Origin: Sphingobacteriaceae bacterium
GTDB taxonomy: Bacteria; Bacteroidota; Bacteroidia; Sphingobacteriales; Sphingobacteriaceae
DNA: 32,090 bases
Direction of reading: 5' to 3'
Assembly: GCA_903644075.1 (NCBI GenBank)
Contig: CAHJXH010000019.1
Coordinates: forward strand, 1-32,090
The notes under the pieces were generated by a model that had not been told where the DNA came from, did not search any database, and saw only the letters and a program-made list of their open reading frames with translations. Of this stretch, positions 9,830 to 23,918 are shown piece after piece (position 1 is the first letter of the stretch; every line of letters starts with the position of its first letter). A program made the translations under genes and the position numbers.

Positions 9830-9861
9830 TTCTTTTTAGTCGAAAGGCTGAAGTGGAATTG

Positions 9862-9896
9862 AAAGGCTTCTGATCGTATGATCGGGAGCCTTTTTT
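9862..9896 (+). terminator. Terminator of ahcY
   Basis: A 14-bp stem with two G-U pairs (9862-9875 with 9880-9893) and a 4-nt loop runs into six T residues. Confidence 0.85.
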
Positions 9897-9912: not shown

Positions 9913-9964
9913 TAGATATCTAACCCTTGCATTTTACAAAAGTATTTAGATATTTGTCTAAATA
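9913..9964 (+). promoter_or_regulatory. Promoter with overlapping operator palindromes for the sdpR-sdpI pair
   Basis: A -33 TTG (9927-9929) is followed after exactly 19 nt by GATATTTG (9949-9956), one mismatch from the Bacteroidota -7 consensus. Two palindromes surround it. The perfect tagatatcta lies at 9913-9922, and 8-bp arms tatttaga/tctaaata at 9943-9950 and 9957-9964 cover the -7 element. This layout is what an autorepressing SdpR/ArsR-family protein would need. Confidence 0.6.
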
Positions 9965-9981
9965 TATAATCAACCAAAGCA

Positions 9982-10191
9982 TTGAACCTACTTTTTAAAG
10001 CATTAAACGACCAAACCCGACGGGAGATACTGGAATACCTGAAAGAGAAAGACCTGACTGCCGGTGAAATAGCCGACAAGGCCGGGCTGGTGGTGTCTGT
10101 TAAAGAAGGCCAGTTTGTTTATTACTCGTTAAACACCACGGTAATGGATGAAATGCTGAAGTGGATTTTGCAATTTAAAACTGAAAAATAA
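9982..10191 (+). CDS. SdpR-like ArsR-family regulator lacking the recognition helix
   Basis: This 69-residue protein begins with the SdpR/ArsR-type N-terminus (FKALNDQTRREILEYLKEKD). After TAGEIADK (residues 26-33) it jumps straight to AGLVVSVKEGQFVYYSLNTT, the beta-wing of the same family. From my knowledge of the family, about 18-20 residues normally lie at that junction. They include the DNA-recognition helix with its SISHHL-type motif and the following LK-Q segment. Intact homologs are about 90 residues. The deletion is in frame, so the fold may partly survive, but specific DNA binding should be lost or altered. The start is TTG at 9982; an in-frame TAA at 9967-9969 rules out an upstream start. 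The next gene, sdpI-like, starts 12 bp downstream. In Bacillus, SdpR represses the sdpRI operon. Confidence 0.75.
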   Translation: MNLLFKALNDQTRREILEYLKEKDLTAGEIADKAGLVVSVKEGQFVYYSLNTTVMDEMLKWILQFKTEK

Positions 10192-10203
10192 CCTTATACC
10201 ATC

Positions 10204-10863
10204 ATGAAAAAGTACAATTTGAGCGATCTGCTTCTTTTAGTTATTTGGCTGCTGCCTCTTATTTATTTAGCCCTTATTTATACACAATTGCCGGCAATTG
10301 TCCCCGTGCATTTTGGCATCGGCGGTAAGCCAGATGGATATGGGCCCAAATCTGATATTATATTTCTGATGGCTTTTGTAAATGGAGCATCGGCAGTAGC
10401 TTATTTTTTAATGAAGTATCTGCCGGCCATTGATCCTAAAAAGCAGGTAAAATATGGCGAGGCCAATTTCAATAAGTTTGCGTTCGGTATTGTGTCGTTT
10501 TTATCGCTCATCTCGCTTACTATTATTTACGCCGTAATACATAAAGGCTTTAAGTACGATAACCTGGAGTTTGTGATCATTAGCCTCATGTTTGTGTTTT
10601 TGGGTAATGTGATGTACAATGTAAAGCCTAATTACTTTGTAGGTATCCGCATTCCCTGGACTTTGGAGAGCGAGGATAACTGGCGCGCCACACACCGTTT
10701 AGCTGGCAAGCTTTGGGTTGGCGGTGGTATTGTGTTGACCGGCCTCATGCTCATTATCCACGGCGAAATGGGGGAGAAGGTATTTATGTACTTTATTGCT
10801 GTGTTGGCTTTGGTGCCGATGATTTATTCGTACAATTATTTTAGAACCCATACTATAAGATAG
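10204..10863 (+). CDS. SdpI family membrane protein (DUF1648 plus SdpI domain)
   Basis: This 219-residue integral membrane protein has about six hydrophobic segments. The N-terminal part carries the DUF1648 phrase LPAIVPVHFGIGGKPDGYG. The C-terminal part carries the SdpI-domain signature NYFVGIRIPWTLESEDNW followed by ATHRLAGKLW. In Bacillus subtilis, SdpI gives immunity to the SdpC toxin and senses it for SdpR. Outside Bacillus the family is widespread and the role is mostly unknown. Here it is co-transcribed with a helix-deleted SdpR-like regulator 12 bp upstream. No sdpC-like toxin gene or sdpAB maturation genes lie nearby, so a stress or envelope role is as likely as immunity. Confidence 0.9.
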   Translation: MKKYNLSDLLLLVIWLLPLIYLALIYTQLPAIVPVHFGIGGKPDGYGPKSDIIFLMAFVNGASAVAYFLMKYLPAIDPKKQVKYGEANFNKFAFGIVSFLSLISLTIIYAVIHKGFKYDNLEFVIISLMFVFLGNVMYNVKPNYFVGIRIPWTLESEDNWRATHRLAGKLWVGGGIVLTGLMLIIHGEMGEKVFMYFIAVLALVPMIYSYNYFRTHTIR

Positions 10864-10939: not shown

Positions 10940-11917
10940 TTAGCGGCTTGCTGAGTAAGTGTTTACTAAAGCACTAATATCTGCAACCTGTACGCTTTTC
11001 ATGCCTCCCACTTCGTTGTGGAATTTAGAAGTGCCGCCAAATACATAAAGTTTGTTGTCAACTATGGCCGCACCGGCTGCCCGGCGGCCTTCCATGTTCG
11101 ATTTTAGCTGGGTAAACTTTTGGGTATTAACATCGAAGTAGCCTAAAAAGCTTTCATCATCATAATTACCTACAACAAAAATAAGATTGCCACTGGCAAC
11201 AACTGCATTGGCAGATATAGTTTGCGGTAATTTACCAACCTTATGCCAGGTGTTTGTTTTTATATCGTAAGCATTGATGCTTTGCGAGCCGCGGTGCAAA
11301 AATTCATCATAACCACCAAAAGTGTATAAAGTTCCGTTAACGATGGCGCCTGCTGCTTGCAGGTGCTCGGGCATATCGGCCAATGGGGTAAATTGCTGCG
11401 TTTGCGTATCAAATTGATACAGTAAAGACAAAGTTTGTTTACCAGATGCTGTTCCGCCGAATAAATAGATCTTATCGCCCCAGGTAACGGCGCTGGCGTA
11501 GGTTGCGGCTATAGGGTTACTAATATCGAGTGTGGTGGTGTTACCTGTGCTCATATTGATGGCTTGTACCCCTCTGAATATTTTTTTGCCGTTAGACCGG
11601 CCTCCAAATAGGTAAGTGTTTCCATTGTTGTAAGCCGCAGCAACCTGGAGTTTGTAACCCGCAGTGTTGTTAAACGTAACCCACTGGTCTGTTAGCGGAT
11701 CGTACCTCAATGTGTTGGAGGTAATCCCTCCCGAAGGAACGAAGCCGTTAATAGCATAAATAAACCTGCCATCGGTAACTGTAGCGGGCCATACCAAACG
11801 GTAAGGCATATCGTGCAGGGTTTTAAAAGTTAACTGGGGCTTAGTAGTATTTTGAGCAACTGCCATGCAGGAGGTTAAAAGCAGTAAGCTAAGTGCTATG
11901 TTTTTTAAAGTTTTCAT
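10940..11917 (-). CDS. Secreted Kelch-repeat protein (paralog A)
   Basis: This 325-residue protein has an N-terminal signal (MKTLKNIALSLLLL). It is followed by TSC, which could serve as a lipobox, or cleavage could be after AVAQ. The rest is a chain of about five to six Kelch repeats, each with a YLFGG-, IYLFGG-, LYTFGG- or LYVFGG-type strand followed by a conserved W or Y, which should fold as a beta-propeller. Such exported propellers bind glycans or proteins or act as sialic-acid mutarotases; nothing here fixes the substrate. It is about half identical by eye to the next gene, including the phrases LVWPATVTDG, NLIFVVG and SVQVADIS. It has its own Bacteroidota-type promoter, so the two paralogs may be separately controlled. 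Confidence 0.88.
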   Translation of the reverse strand: MKTLKNIALSLLLLTSCMAVAQNTTKPQLTFKTLHDMPYRLVWPATVTDGRFIYAINGFVPSGGITSNTLRYDPLTDQWVTFNNTAGYKLQVAAAYNNGNTYLFGGRSNGKKIFRGVQAINMSTGNTTTLDISNPIAATYASAVTWGDKIYLFGGTASGKQTLSLLYQFDTQTQQFTPLADMPEHLQAAGAIVNGTLYTFGGYDEFLHRGSQSINAYDIKTNTWHKVGKLPQTISANAVVASGNLIFVVGNYDDESFLGYFDVNTQKFTQLKSNMEGRRAAGAAIVDNKLYVFGGTSKFHNEVGGMKSVQVADISALVNTYSASR

Positions 11918-11936
11918 ATTCAGGCTATTGGTTGTC

Positions 11937-11966
11937 TAAATATACTAAACATTTGTATTGGAACAA
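11937..11966 (-). promoter_or_regulatory. Promoter of Kelch paralog A
   Basis: On the minus strand a TTG (11964-11966) is followed after exactly 19 nt by TATATTTA (11937-11944), one mismatch from TANNTTTG. It lies 20 bp before the start, between the two Kelch genes, which supports independent transcription. Confidence 0.6.
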
Positions 11967-11996
11967 TGGTTAGGCTGCAATTAAGTTGCATTAATT

Positions 11997-13028
11997 TTAA
12001 TTGCTTGCCGTGCTGGTATTGGCTGCATTTAATATGCCCGAAATGTCGGCTACCTGTACAGATTTGGTACTGCCGCCTACAGCCATATCGTATCCTGCTT
12101 TACCGCCAAATACATAAAGTTTGTTGCCGATTACCATTGCACCGCCAGATCTGCGGGCTTTCATGTTCGATTTTAATTGGGTAAACTTATTGGTTACAGT
12201 ATTGTAATAACCTAAAAAGGTGCCCTTATCATAATCGCCAACAACAAAAATAAGATTGCCAACTGCGGCTACCGTATTTGAAGACAAGGCTATAGGCAGT
12301 TTTGCAACGGTTGTCCAAACATTGGTAGAAATGTTATAAGCATTAATGGTTTTATATTTCGTGTTTAAGAAAGTTTCATAGCCGCCAAAGGTGTAAATAA
12401 CCCCATTTATAATTGTGCCCGATACCTCGCCTTGCTGCGGCATATCTGCAAGCTGTGAAAAGGTTTCAGATTTCGGGTCGAAACTATAAAGTGAAGCAAT
12501 TGCGTGGCCTTGGTTTGGCGCTGAACCCAAATGGCCATATTGGGTACCTCCCCAAATATAAATTTTACCATTCCACTCGGCAGAGAATGAATAGGCTGCT
12601 GAATTTGTATTAATAACATTTAATGTTTTTACGTCGCCGGTTTTAAGGTCAATACTTTTTACATCGCGCGACGTGCTTGCATTGGGCATCATGCCACCGA
12701 ATACATACGCATGGCCATCTGCAGGTACATAAGCCGCGGTTGATTGTAATTTAGCTCCAGCCGCTTTGCTTACCAAAGCCCAGCTTTCATTCTCAGGGTT
12801 GTATCTTACAACACCGCTGCTAAAAGTGCCGTTAGAAGGTGCGTGCCCGTTAATTACATAAATATACTTGCCATCGGTAACTGTAGCTGGCCATACTAAG
12901 TCAACCGGCATGTCTTTAAGGTCAGTAAATTTTAAATAATTGTCTGCAGTAGTGGGGTTTGTTTGTGCCGTTGAAAGTTTGGCAACCAAAATAAGCAGAA
13001 ATACTGCGAAGTTTTTAAAAGTTTTCAT
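11997..13028 (-). CDS. Secreted Kelch-repeat protein (paralog B)
   Basis: This 343-residue protein has a signal peptide (MKTFKNFAVFLLILVAKLSTAQ) and Kelch repeats with YVFGG, IYIWGG, IYTFGG and LYVFGG strands. It lacks the Cys near the cleavage site seen in paralog A, so it is probably released rather than lipidated. Relative to A it has an insertion around IWGGTQYGHLGSAPNQ and a slightly longer C-terminus ending in an Asn/Ser/Thr-rich stretch. The tandem arrangement, similar length and shared phrases throughout show a local duplication followed by divergence. A ligand-binding or lectin-like role is plausible but unproven. The YbjQ-family gene lies just upstream on the same strand, with a 67-bp gap. 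Confidence 0.88.
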   Translation of the reverse strand: MKTFKNFAVFLLILVAKLSTAQTNPTTADNYLKFTDLKDMPVDLVWPATVTDGKYIYVINGHAPSNGTFSSGVVRYNPENESWALVSKAAGAKLQSTAAYVPADGHAYVFGGMMPNASTSRDVKSIDLKTGDVKTLNVINTNSAAYSFSAEWNGKIYIWGGTQYGHLGSAPNQGHAIASLYSFDPKSETFSQLADMPQQGEVSGTIINGVIYTFGGYETFLNTKYKTINAYNISTNVWTTVAKLPIALSSNTVAAVGNLIFVVGDYDKGTFLGYYNTVTNKFTQLKSNMKARRSGGAMVIGNKLYVFGGKAGYDMAVGGSTKSVQVADISGILNAANTSTASN

Positions 13029-19492: not shown

Positions 19493-21061
19493 TTAACGCT
19501 TTGGATTTTCTATTCCATAATCATTTATCAATTTTAATAGTACCCCATTAGTCCAGCCGAAACCATCTTGTAATGGATATTCGCCGCCGCCTGCGATAGC
19601 GCCGTGGCTTTCTAAATCATATTTTTCTAAAAGCTTGCCTGTTTGCTTAAAGCCTGTGGTGTTTACTTTGATCCAACGCAAGGCTATTACTTTAGCTAAA
19701 CTATCCTGATGGTAATTTTTTAACCCCATAATAGTGATGTACTGCAACGGTGCCCAGCCGTTTGGCCTGTCCCACTGCTGGCCGGTTTTAAGCAGGGTGG
19801 TAGATACACCGCCTGATTGCAGGAACTTATGTTCTACCAAATCGGTAACTTTTTGTGCCTGCTGCTGATCTGCCATCTCGAAATACAGCGGGAACGTAGT
19901 GGAGATATTAATTAACGGTGATTGAGTTTTTAGCTTCCAGTTGTAATCTACATAACAGTTGGTGCTATTGTCCCAGCAGTATTTATTAATAGCCGCTTTA
20001 CGTTTATAAGCTTTAGCCAGGTACAATGATGCCAGCTTTTTATTACCCTTTAACTGGTACGACTTGGCGATTACGGTTTCGAGGTGATACATCAAACAAT
20101 TTAAATCAACAGGGATTAGGTTGATAGTTTGGATGGTGTACAGGTTCTTTCCATCGGCCAACCAACGGCTGCTGAAATCCCAACCCGACTCGGCTGCCGC
20201 GCGCATGTTACGGTAAAGATCTCCCGGTTTCTGTTCGCTCTTTTTGGCTTCCAGTACGTCTTCCCTATACGATTCTTCGCGGGGCTGATTACTGGCATCG
20301 TAATAGCGGTTAAGCAAAGTACCATCATCGAGGCGCACAACATGTTCAGTTGCGTTGCCTGATTTTAATGCATCGCTGCTGTGCATAAAGTATTGGTATT
20401 CTTTTAATAATTCGGGTTGATAAGTAACCAGGGCCTTTGGCCCTTTAGTTTTCGCCAGTAATTCCACCATCATAGAAAAAAAAGGAGGCTGCGAACGGCT
20501 GAGATAATAGGTGCGGTTACCGTTAGGAATGTGGCCATAAGTATCGATGAGGTAGGCGAAGTTTTTAACTTCATCCTCAACTACCTTGTAGCGGTGGCTT
20601 TCTGCAAGCCCCAGCATGGTGAAGTAAGAATCCCAGTAATAAACTTCGCGGAAACGGCCACCAGGAACCACATAAGAATGGGGCAGAGGGATAAGCGAGG
20701 TGCCTTTAACGGTATCGGCTACGCGTTGTAGAACAGTCCAGAGGGTATCAATATGCTTGCGGATGCCTGCATTAATATCGCTCTTAAACGGTGTGCTGTT
20801 GGTAGCGGGTGCATTGAAGTTCTGCTTTACAAATGCATCGAGGTTAAAATCGGGCTTATTCTTTAAGGCTTCATAATCCTTCAATATTTTTTCGGGCGAC
20901 CGGCGCGGCGATGCATCGGGGAAGGTTTTGCCATCGGGATATATTTTTTGCATCTGCACGGCTTCAAATAAATCGCCGTATAATTGTGCAGGTGATTTCG
21001 GTTGCGCTTGTGCCAGGTAAATACAGCAATTCAGTATCAGTAGGGCCAGTATCTTTCTCAT
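19493..21061 (-). CDS. treA: Periplasmic alpha,alpha-trehalase (GH37)
   Basis: The protein has 522 residues from the start at 21061 (MRKILALLILNCCIYLAQAQ), which begins with a signal peptide. The frame extends 24 codons further upstream, but that part has no signal-like character at its start. Both GH37 signatures are present: PGGRFREVYYWDSY at about residues 133-146 and QWDRPNGWAPLQY near the C-terminal third. LIPVDLNCLMYHLE and GGGEYPLQDGFGWTNGV (with the catalytic-region Glu) also fit. It splits trehalose into two glucose molecules outside the cytoplasm. It is upstream of a HAD phosphatase, probably in one transcript. It is divergent from yceI. Confidence 0.95.
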   Translation of the reverse strand: MRKILALLILNCCIYLAQAQPKSPAQLYGDLFEAVQMQKIYPDGKTFPDASPRRSPEKILKDYEALKNKPDFNLDAFVKQNFNAPATNSTPFKSDINAGIRKHIDTLWTVLQRVADTVKGTSLIPLPHSYVVPGGRFREVYYWDSYFTMLGLAESHRYKVVEDEVKNFAYLIDTYGHIPNGNRTYYLSRSQPPFFSMMVELLAKTKGPKALVTYQPELLKEYQYFMHSSDALKSGNATEHVVRLDDGTLLNRYYDASNQPREESYREDVLEAKKSEQKPGDLYRNMRAAAESGWDFSSRWLADGKNLYTIQTINLIPVDLNCLMYHLETVIAKSYQLKGNKKLASLYLAKAYKRKAAINKYCWDNSTNCYVDYNWKLKTQSPLINISTTFPLYFEMADQQQAQKVTDLVEHKFLQSGGVSTTLLKTGQQWDRPNGWAPLQYITIMGLKNYHQDSLAKVIALRWIKVNTTGFKQTGKLLEKYDLESHGAIAGGGEYPLQDGFGWTNGVLLKLINDYGIENPKR

Positions 21062-21134
21062 AAGTGTTTTTCTCCTTGGTATTAACCAATCTTGTGGCCA
21101 ATTGTCAGCAGAAAGCAAAAAATAATAATACATG

Positions 21135-22419: not shown

Positions 22420-22749
22420 ATGGGAACTACTAAGACAGAAATATTTTCTGAGGAGCAAAACAGACTGGCATTATTGCTTAAAGCAATAGCGCACCCGGCC
22501 CGTATTGCCATTTTGCAGCATATTATTACAGCTAACGCCTGCATATGTGGCGACTTGGTAGAAGAATTAGGTTTAGCGCAAGCCACCATTTCGCAGCATT
22601 TAAAAGAATTGAAAAACGCCGGGATTATACAAGGCACTATTGAAGGCGTTAAAGTTTGCTATTGCATTGAGCTTAAAACATGGAAACTGCTCCAGGCACG
22701 GTTAGGCGAATTCTTTGGGGCGTATAAAGGTGAAACCGGCTGCTGTTAA
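22420..22749 (+). CDS. arsR: ArsR-family metalloregulatory repressor
   Basis: This 109-residue winged-helix protein has the ArsR layout: ALLLKAIAHPARIAILQHI, the metal-site-type segment NACICGDLVEEL (C41 and C43), the recognition helix AQATISQHLKELKNAGII and a beta-wing with KVCYCIEL (C80, C82). The C-terminus ends in CC (C108, C109). The C-x-C at 41-43 sits where classic ArsR proteins bind As(III) or Sb(III), and the extra cysteines could give the third ligand. Ligand identity is inferred from these cysteines and from the downstream arsenate reductase. It is the first gene of the cassette. Its predicted operator overlaps the promoter just before the start codon, so it should repress itself and be released by the metalloid. 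Confidence 0.92.
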   Translation: MGTTKTEIFSEEQNRLALLLKAIAHPARIAILQHIITANACICGDLVEELGLAQATISQHLKELKNAGIIQGTIEGVKVCYCIELKTWKLLQARLGEFFGAYKGETGCC

Positions 22750-22766
22750 AATTTTTTAATTAAATC

Positions 22767-22783
22767 AATCGTAATATTACAAT
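22767..22783 (+). promoter_or_regulatory. Second ArsR-type operator
   Basis: Twelve bases aatcgtaatatt (22767-22778) repeat the first operator (22400-22411) exactly, continuing as acaat to form an imperfect palindrome. It lies in the short gap between arsR and the DUF6428 gene, so it could give internal control of the rest of the cassette. Confidence 0.6.
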
Positions 22784-22794
22784 AAATAGAAGGT

Positions 22795-23364
22795 ATGAAT
22801 ATAGGAGAATTAATGAACTGGCAGACTTTTAAAGAAAAGTTATTGCAATACCCGGAGCTTACCCTGCAATTTCAATACGCTGCTGATATCTGGGTAGATG
22901 CTTCATATCATATAACCGAGATTAAACAAGCTCCCATTACCTCGGTAGATTGCGGCGGGAAGATGAACAGCTGGACAGAGGTTATCATGCAATTATGGGA
23001 ACCTGCGGATGGTGACGATAGCCGTGCCATGCAGGTGAACAAAGCTTTGTCAATCATCCAACTGGTTGAAAAAACATTACCCTTAAATCCATTGGCAATT
23101 GTAAAGATAGAATTTGGGAATTCGCAGTTTGACACCCGCCAGATGTATCCTGGTGATATGATTGTTCAAGATGAAAACTTCATCGTCGATCTCAATCCTG
23201 ATTTTACACAATGCAAAGCAATAAGCAGGGGAGGCAGTTGTGGCACCAATGATAAAGGCGAAGAGTGTTGTACGCCTGCTACCACGGAGGCTAAGCCTAA
23301 AGTACAGCTGGTAAACCTGGCTACAAACAGTCCTGCTTGTGCACCGGGTTCAGGTTGTTGTTAA
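22795..23364 (+). CDS. DUF6428-like Cys-rich protein of the ars cassette
   Basis: This 189-residue soluble protein matches DUF6428 as I know it from Bacteroidota ars loci: MNWQTFKEKLLQYPELTLQF, HITEIKQAPITSVDCGGK, TEVIMQLWEP and a segment with the PLNPLAIVKIEFGN phrase. The C-terminal ~40 residues are Cys-rich (GSCGTNDKGEECCTPAT, then ACAPGSGCC), giving seven cysteines that could hold a soft metalloid. The start may be at 22795 or at the second Met (22813). It follows arsR after 45 bp, with a second ArsR-type operator in the gap, and it precedes a 44-residue miniprotein by 1 bp. A metalloid chaperone or sink role is inference from cysteines and context. Confidence 0.8.
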   Translation: MNIGELMNWQTFKEKLLQYPELTLQFQYAADIWVDASYHITEIKQAPITSVDCGGKMNSWTEVIMQLWEPADGDDSRAMQVNKALSIIQLVEKTLPLNPLAIVKIEFGNSQFDTRQMYPGDMIVQDENFIVDLNPDFTQCKAISRGGSCGTNDKGEECCTPATTEAKPKVQLVNLATNSPACAPGSGCC

Positions 23365-23365
23365 A

Positions 23366-23500
23366 ATGTTAGCCAAACTGATTAGATATAAAAAGCCGCT
23401 TGTAATTACCATGTCGGTGTTGGTATTGCAGCTCATTTTTGGCTGGGATGCCAAGTTCTGCATCATCAACATCATTTGGTTATTGCCTTTAAATAAATAA
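23366..23500 (+). CDS. 44-residue membrane miniprotein in the ars cassette
   Basis: An ATG at 23366 opens a 44-codon frame ending at 23500. It begins 1 bp after the DUF6428 stop and ends 1 bp before the arsC start, so the spacing is that of a real operon gene. The protein has a basic start (LAKLIRYKKP), a hydrophobic segment (about residues 11-25, VITMSVLVLQLIFGW) and a second hydrophobic stretch with one Cys (KFCIINIIWLLP). I do not recognise a family. It could be a small membrane partner of the metalloid system, or a remnant of a longer membrane gene such as an efflux component. Confidence 0.55.
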   Translation: MLAKLIRYKKPLVITMSVLVLQLIFGWDAKFCIINIIWLLPLNK

Positions 23501-23501
23501 A

Positions 23502-23918
23502 ATGAAAAAAATACTAGTACTATGTACCGGCAACAGTTGCAGAAGCCAGATTGCCGAAGGTTATCTAAGAGCATTTGCAGGCGATAAGGCAGAAGTTTAC
23601 AGCGCCGGGATAGAAACCCATGGTGTAAACACACGCGCCATTGAAATTATGAAAAGGGACGGCATAGATATATCGGCACATACATCCAATAACATCAATG
23701 AGTATATGGATGTTAATTTCGATTATGTAATTACCGTTTGCGATAATGCAAAAGAAAGCTGCCCATATTTTCCTTCAAAAGCCGTAAAACTACACTACAA
23801 CTTCCCCGATCCGGCCAAAGCTACAGGTACGGAAGAACAGGTGATGGAAGCTTTTCGCGAGGTACGCGAGCAGATTAGAAGTTATACGCGGAACTTTGTG
23901 AATGAGAATTTTAGGTAA
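23502..23918 (+). CDS. arsC: Thioredoxin-coupled arsenate reductase (low-molecular-weight PTPase fold)
   Basis: This 138-residue cytoplasmic enzyme has the P-loop CTGNSCRS with nucleophile C8 and R14. The redox pair is C80 and C87 in VCDNAKESCPYFP, spaced as in the Staphylococcus pI258 ArsC (C10, R16, C82, C89), and the Asp lies in FPDPAKA. It should reduce arsenate to arsenite through a C8-C80-C87 relay regenerated by thioredoxin. The extra cysteines separate it from ordinary low-molecular-weight tyrosine phosphatases. It is the last gene of the cassette. The arsenite exporter (ArsB or Acr3) that normally accompanies it is not in the window, so arsenite must leave by a pump encoded elsewhere. 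Confidence 0.93.
   Translation: MKKILVLCTGNSCRSQIAEGYLRAFAGDKAEVYSAGIETHGVNTRAIEIMKRDGIDISAHTSNNINEYMDVNFDYVITVCDNAKESCPYFPSKAVKLHYNFPDPAKATGTEEQVMEAFREVREQIRSYTRNFVNENFR

Follow-up and report, generated by a model that had tools for sequence, protein, structure and literature searches.

The sdpR gene typically lies directly upstream of sdpI. This setting is also supported by PMC1626106, according to which SdpR of Bacillus subtilis is an autorepressor that keeps the sdpRI operon at its basal level and that SdpI, responding to SdpC, sequesters at the membrane. A literature search on SdpR combined with Bacteroidetes and ArsR, and on Mucilaginibacter combined with SdpI, returned nothing. In the present analysis, an sdpRI locus was compared with these systems in the window, by which we mean the whole stretch of DNA that was analysed (32,090 nucleotides). 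The window spans one entire contig from a draft assembly (4.67 Mb, 346 contigs, 86.3% complete, 1.3% contamination). Its gene order matched that of Mucilaginibacter polytrichastri RG4-7 over most of its length and, judging from this match, the organism would belong to an uncultured lineage of Mucilaginibacter.

Results

The sdpR gene of the window (Table 1) encodes a short protein in which TAGEIADK is joined straight to AGLVVSVKEGQ, exactly as an earlier note on this DNA had read the 69-residue product. Alignment with the sdpR of M. polytrichastri RG4-7 showed that the missing piece was exactly 51 bp, i.e., 17 whole codons (FNISKPSISHHLDLLRQ), which bears out the claim that the reading frame was kept across the deletion. 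The loss of residues that the earlier note had described is real, while its estimate of 18–20 residues or about 57 bases was too large. The junction was placed at 10080|10081, a position that is good to about two bases. The absent piece corresponds to residues 34–50 of the M. polytrichastri protein and comprises the end of one helix, a turn and the whole predicted helix 38–50, which we take, from what is known of the family, to be the recognition helix of the ArsR winged helix. Replication slippage was considered as the origin of the junction; the relative carries CGACA at both ends of the piece, with the two copies 52 bases apart. An exact slip between these copies would take out 52 bases and shift the frame, and hence slippage does not account for the junction in its present form.

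Table 1. Features of the sdpRI locus and its upstream region, with positions numbered from the first base of the window.
Feature	Position	Strand	Remarks
Terminator-like hairpin after ahcY	9861-9894	+	15-pair stem, T-rich tail; also an inverted repeat
10-bp palindrome TAGATATCTA	9913-9922		Named in the earlier note; found in 0/80 loci
Putative SdpR operator	9943-9964		Conserved palindrome; core ATTTAGAYATTTGTCTAAAT starts 38 bp before the start codon
sdpR, internally deleted	9982-10191	+	TTG start, 69 aa; in-frame 51-bp deletion
Deletion junction	10078-10083	+	Lys codon AAG 10078-10080, Ala codon GCC 10081-10083; DNA alignment with M. polytrichastri
sdpI	10204-10863	+	Open, 219-aa membrane-protein gene, second in the operon

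Against NF033789, the model of the autorepressor SdpR family, the short protein scored 80.8 bits in two stretches, under the curated cut-off of 100, and against the NCBIfam ArsR/SmtB model NF033788 it reached 47.5 bits with a cut-off of 55. The Pfam domain HTH_5 (PF01022) was matched above its threshold (23.3 bits vs. 22), but only over profile positions 1–27 of 47. Matches were found to 25 distinct PDB sequences at E values up to 1e-4, and the names of these were mostly those of ArsR-type regulators. The recognition helix of the winged helix-turn-helix that belongs to the SdpR family is lacking, and the typical setting of the family is present, with sdpR directly upstream of sdpI and 12 bp between them. 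AlphaFold2 gave the short protein a pLDDT of 58.2 and a pTM of 0.31 (36 aligned sequences), compared with 88.9 and 0.76 for the intact M. polytrichastri protein (35 sequences), in which a helix was predicted at 38–50. These models suggest that the short protein may not fold, with the reservation that AlphaFold2 confidence is no measure of stability.

The protein encoded by the second gene matched the SdpI/YfhL family over positions 2–71 of 71 (Pfam PF13630, E 1.5e-21, 76.7 bits vs. a gathering threshold of 28.2) as well as DUF1648 (E 1.5e-13). The alignment of sdpI with its M. polytrichastri orthologue was free of gaps, and the gene is constrained (pN 0.127, pS 0.72). Its synonymous divergence from M. 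polytrichastri was far larger than that of sdpR (pS 0.72 vs. 0.20). The possibility that sdpI is a recombined piece was set aside when pS was computed for sdpR and sdpI in 528 pairs, in which the window was compared with all 32 loci tried and none was dropped; among the 25 pairs in which sdpR had its lowest pS, sdpI was the more diverged gene in 24, the reverse being seen in L099-L112. Two other regions of the window were noted. Two tandem kelch-like secreted proteins, as read from the sequence, are encoded at 10940-13028, after sdpI, and in M. polytrichastri the flanks that match those of this region are only about 70 bases apart. A three-gene cluster at 22420-23918, read as an ArsR-type regulator, an unknown protein and a low-molecular-weight phosphatase or arsenate-reductase-like protein, has no orthologue in the part of M. 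polytrichastri that was compared.

Twenty-seven genes of the window were compared one by one with M. polytrichastri (the ORFs 291-1211, 10940-11917 and 11997-13028 were left out). Four of the 27 were unmatched in the compared stretches, the only match of 22420-22749 was a distant paralogue, and that of 19493-21133 was an 83-aa piece. Apart from sdpR, 20 genes had a usable orthologue, and the largest indel among them was three codons. The retained codons of sdpR differed from those of M. polytrichastri by nine synonymous and three nonsynonymous changes and, with 21 Mucilaginibacter loci as the outgroup, two of the latter (M80L and S84T) were assigned to the branch of the window and one to the other branch. 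A gene without constraint since the two lineages separated should have gathered many more nonsynonymous changes. Having so few amino-acid changes outside of the deletion means that the loss is recent or that the remainder is still under selection; judging from these differences, a recent loss would be the simpler reading.

How widespread the short form is was assessed in 149 genomes of the genus, which were queried with the short SdpR at E 0.001 and with sdpI at E 1e-25. SdpR was matched in 49 genomes, and the identical 49 matched sdpI. The NF033789 cut-off was reached in 47 of the 149, which is 47 of the 48 others with an SdpR match, and direct reading found the helix motif in all 47; in one of these (G129), the end of the contig cuts sdpR after the helix. 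The motif was likewise present in 80/80 named Bacteroidota loci, the best 80 of the 120 relatives found. The samples of the family, order and class (399, 400 and 395 genomes) were non-exhaustive and overlapped each other and the genus set. In these, the match in each of the 36, 35 and 34 other matching genomes, respectively, was split into a front and a back piece, the pattern expected of a gene with the helix in between, and at E 0.001 nothing was matched in 362, 364 and 360 genomes. A second helix-less SdpR was not found in the sampled genomes of the family, order and class. One match in the class sample (G578) has a stop inside the matched stretch. The idea that the deletion might be fixed in the clade, with a short form throughout the genus, is therefore rejected for the genomes examined, and the loss of the helix is specific to one lineage among the genomes read.

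A further damaged sdpR was met in G075, a genome of the same genus that is 63% complete. At 349-480 of its contig C116 (locus L171), sdpR is reduced to its C-terminal end, directly followed by a full-length match to sdpI. As in the window, the remnant is without the DNA-binding part and sdpI is kept. Unlike in the window, the whole front of the gene has been lost together with the operator, to which no match was found in the 3000 bases read. Because the breakpoint differs, this is an independent event, if it is not a fault of the assembly; such a fault is possible, given that the remnant lies about 350 bases from the start of the contig.

Of the two palindromes that the earlier note had placed in the promoter, the one at 9943-9964 proved to be real. 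Its core, ATTTAGAYATTTGTCTAAAT, was searched for within 120 bases before sdpR in 80 loci and was found with no mismatch in 42, one in 23, two in 12, three in two and five in one, i.e., with at most one mismatch in 65/80 and at most two in 77/80, while the best of 20 shuffles for each locus had 4–8 mismatches. The window contains two matches (the site and its own reverse) compared with 0.02 expected. In the whole assembly, the sole exact copy is at 9943-9963; the two other matches, with three mismatches each, are the same site on the opposite strand and one site elsewhere. Given its conservation, this palindrome very probably serves as the operator of SdpR and, as only a single exact copy was found in the assembly, SdpR probably controls just the operon that encodes it. 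Strong conservation of the palindrome extends from Mucilaginibacter to distant Bacteroidota loci, and a limited literature search showed no description of it.

The other palindrome, TAGATATCTA, does exist in the window, but it is not conserved: in all 80 loci it was absent from the 150 bp that precede sdpR, and consequently it is probably due to chance. The -7 motif of Bacteroidota is TAnnTTTG. It occurs upstream of sdpR in only 11/80 loci, and the proposal that one palindrome covers a -7 element could not be established; TTTAGANNTTTG, which lies inside the operator palindrome, is present upstream of sdpR in 64/80. A sigma-70 scan, which is uninformative for Bacteroidota, gave three promoter-like sites vs. 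3.7 expected, none of them on the plus strand before sdpR. Two terminator-like sites were found compared with 1.0 expected. The one after ahcY, a hairpin that M. polytrichastri also has at the matching place in the alignment, probably separates ahcY from sdpRI, which fits an independent promoter of the operon.

Discussion

Taken together, we consider that a single Mucilaginibacter lineage has undergone a recent in-frame deletion in sdpR that produced a null allele, with the loss of autorepression and a constitutive sdpRI operon, and we give this reading a probability of roughly three in four. The deletion removes the turn and the recognition helix from the winged helix of this ArsR-type protein, and the product would be either unstable or unable to bind the operator. 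Following the logic of the B. subtilis system, the operator would be left empty, autorepression would cease and the sdpRI transcript would become constitutive. Because the frame and the stop codon of sdpR were kept, sdpI should still be translated and would be permanently expressed. The constraint on the retained codons fits a recent loss, but it also fits a short protein that is still under selection. The earlier note had offered either a decaying repressor with a constitutive sdpI or a helix-less form that acts as a dominant-negative partner or co-sensor. The lost repressor is the better-supported alternative, because among the genomes read the helix is missing only here, both sdpI and the operator have been preserved and the fold is not predicted with confidence; the term decaying is too strong for a gene that, outside of the deletion, has only two amino-acid changes on its own branch.

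The chief doubt about the null allele is an artefact of the draft assembly or of a mixed-strain consensus, in which case the sdpR of the organism would be normal. The assembly is indeed fragmented and incomplete, and the deletion is known from one genome only. Nevertheless, with the relative as a proxy, the flanks share only about two bases at the junction, which would probably be too short for the collapse of a shared word. Moreover, the frame is preserved, the 20 other compared genes of the window contain no indel longer than three codons, and a strain mixture was set aside after a search of the assembly at E values up to 10 revealed no intact second allele of sdpR. We therefore regard an artefact as rather unlikely. 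An explanation in which the short form is peculiar to a clade and binds DNA in another way can practically be dismissed, as the helix motif is present in every genus genome above the cut-off and in all of the named loci, the nearest relative included.

The remaining alternatives assign a function to the helix-less protein. As a working co-sensor that is blind to DNA, it might meet SdpI at the membrane and tune signalling; the wing and the C-terminal helix have been retained with few changes, and the remnant in G075 likewise keeps the C-terminal part. However, the short form occurs in no relative examined, its predicted fold is poor and, with no repressor remaining, a target for such tuning is not evident, which makes this role improbable. 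It is highly improbable that SdpR has turned into a partner of SdpI that is blind to DNA, in which the wing and C-terminal helix were kept for binding SdpI at the membrane and of which G075 would be a second case. The helix-less protein might also be a dominant-negative partner of an intact ArsR or SdpR protein. ArsR proteins work as dimers, and other ArsR-type proteins are encoded in the genome (C289:1931-2158, with 82.6 bits against the SdpR model, and 22420-22749 of the window). However, the other matches to the short protein in its own genome are 33–39% identical over short stretches, and no other SdpR above the NF033789 cut-off was found in the 86%-complete assembly, so within that assembly the dominant-negative form has no evident partner, and this role is very improbable. 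The absence of an intact SdpR from this incomplete assembly and of the short form from the relatives examined thus speaks against both of the functional roles that had been proposed earlier. The null allele, in turn, looks like an ordinary loss of function of a known kind of repressor and not like a new type of regulator.

Since the DNA-binding part was lost in nature while the operator and sdpI were kept, the null allele may be used for probing the role of sdpRI in Bacteroidota. More useful in general than the allele itself is ATTTAGAYATTTGTCTAAAT, which provides a concrete candidate operator before the sdpR genes of the Bacteroidota loci examined.

The toxin SdpC was also considered. No genome among the 149 of the genus had a match to its model (TIGR04032) above the cut-off; the only match at E 0.001 was a weak one (52.2 bits vs. 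99.2) at G031:C1:1310280-1310567 (L207), in a genome that is not one of the 49 in which both sdpR and sdpI were matched. Compared with B. subtilis, the SdpR of the window is likewise a small protein of the ArsR type that is encoded directly before sdpI, and its kept residues match NF033789. It differs in lacking the recognition helix and in falling under the cut-off of that model, and its assembly is without a match to SdpC. The closest system is the orthologue in M. polytrichastri RG4-7 (L091), which has the same gene order after ahcY and the same operator, with 96% identity over the retained residues; unlike the protein of the window, it is full-length (84 aa) and its helix is present.
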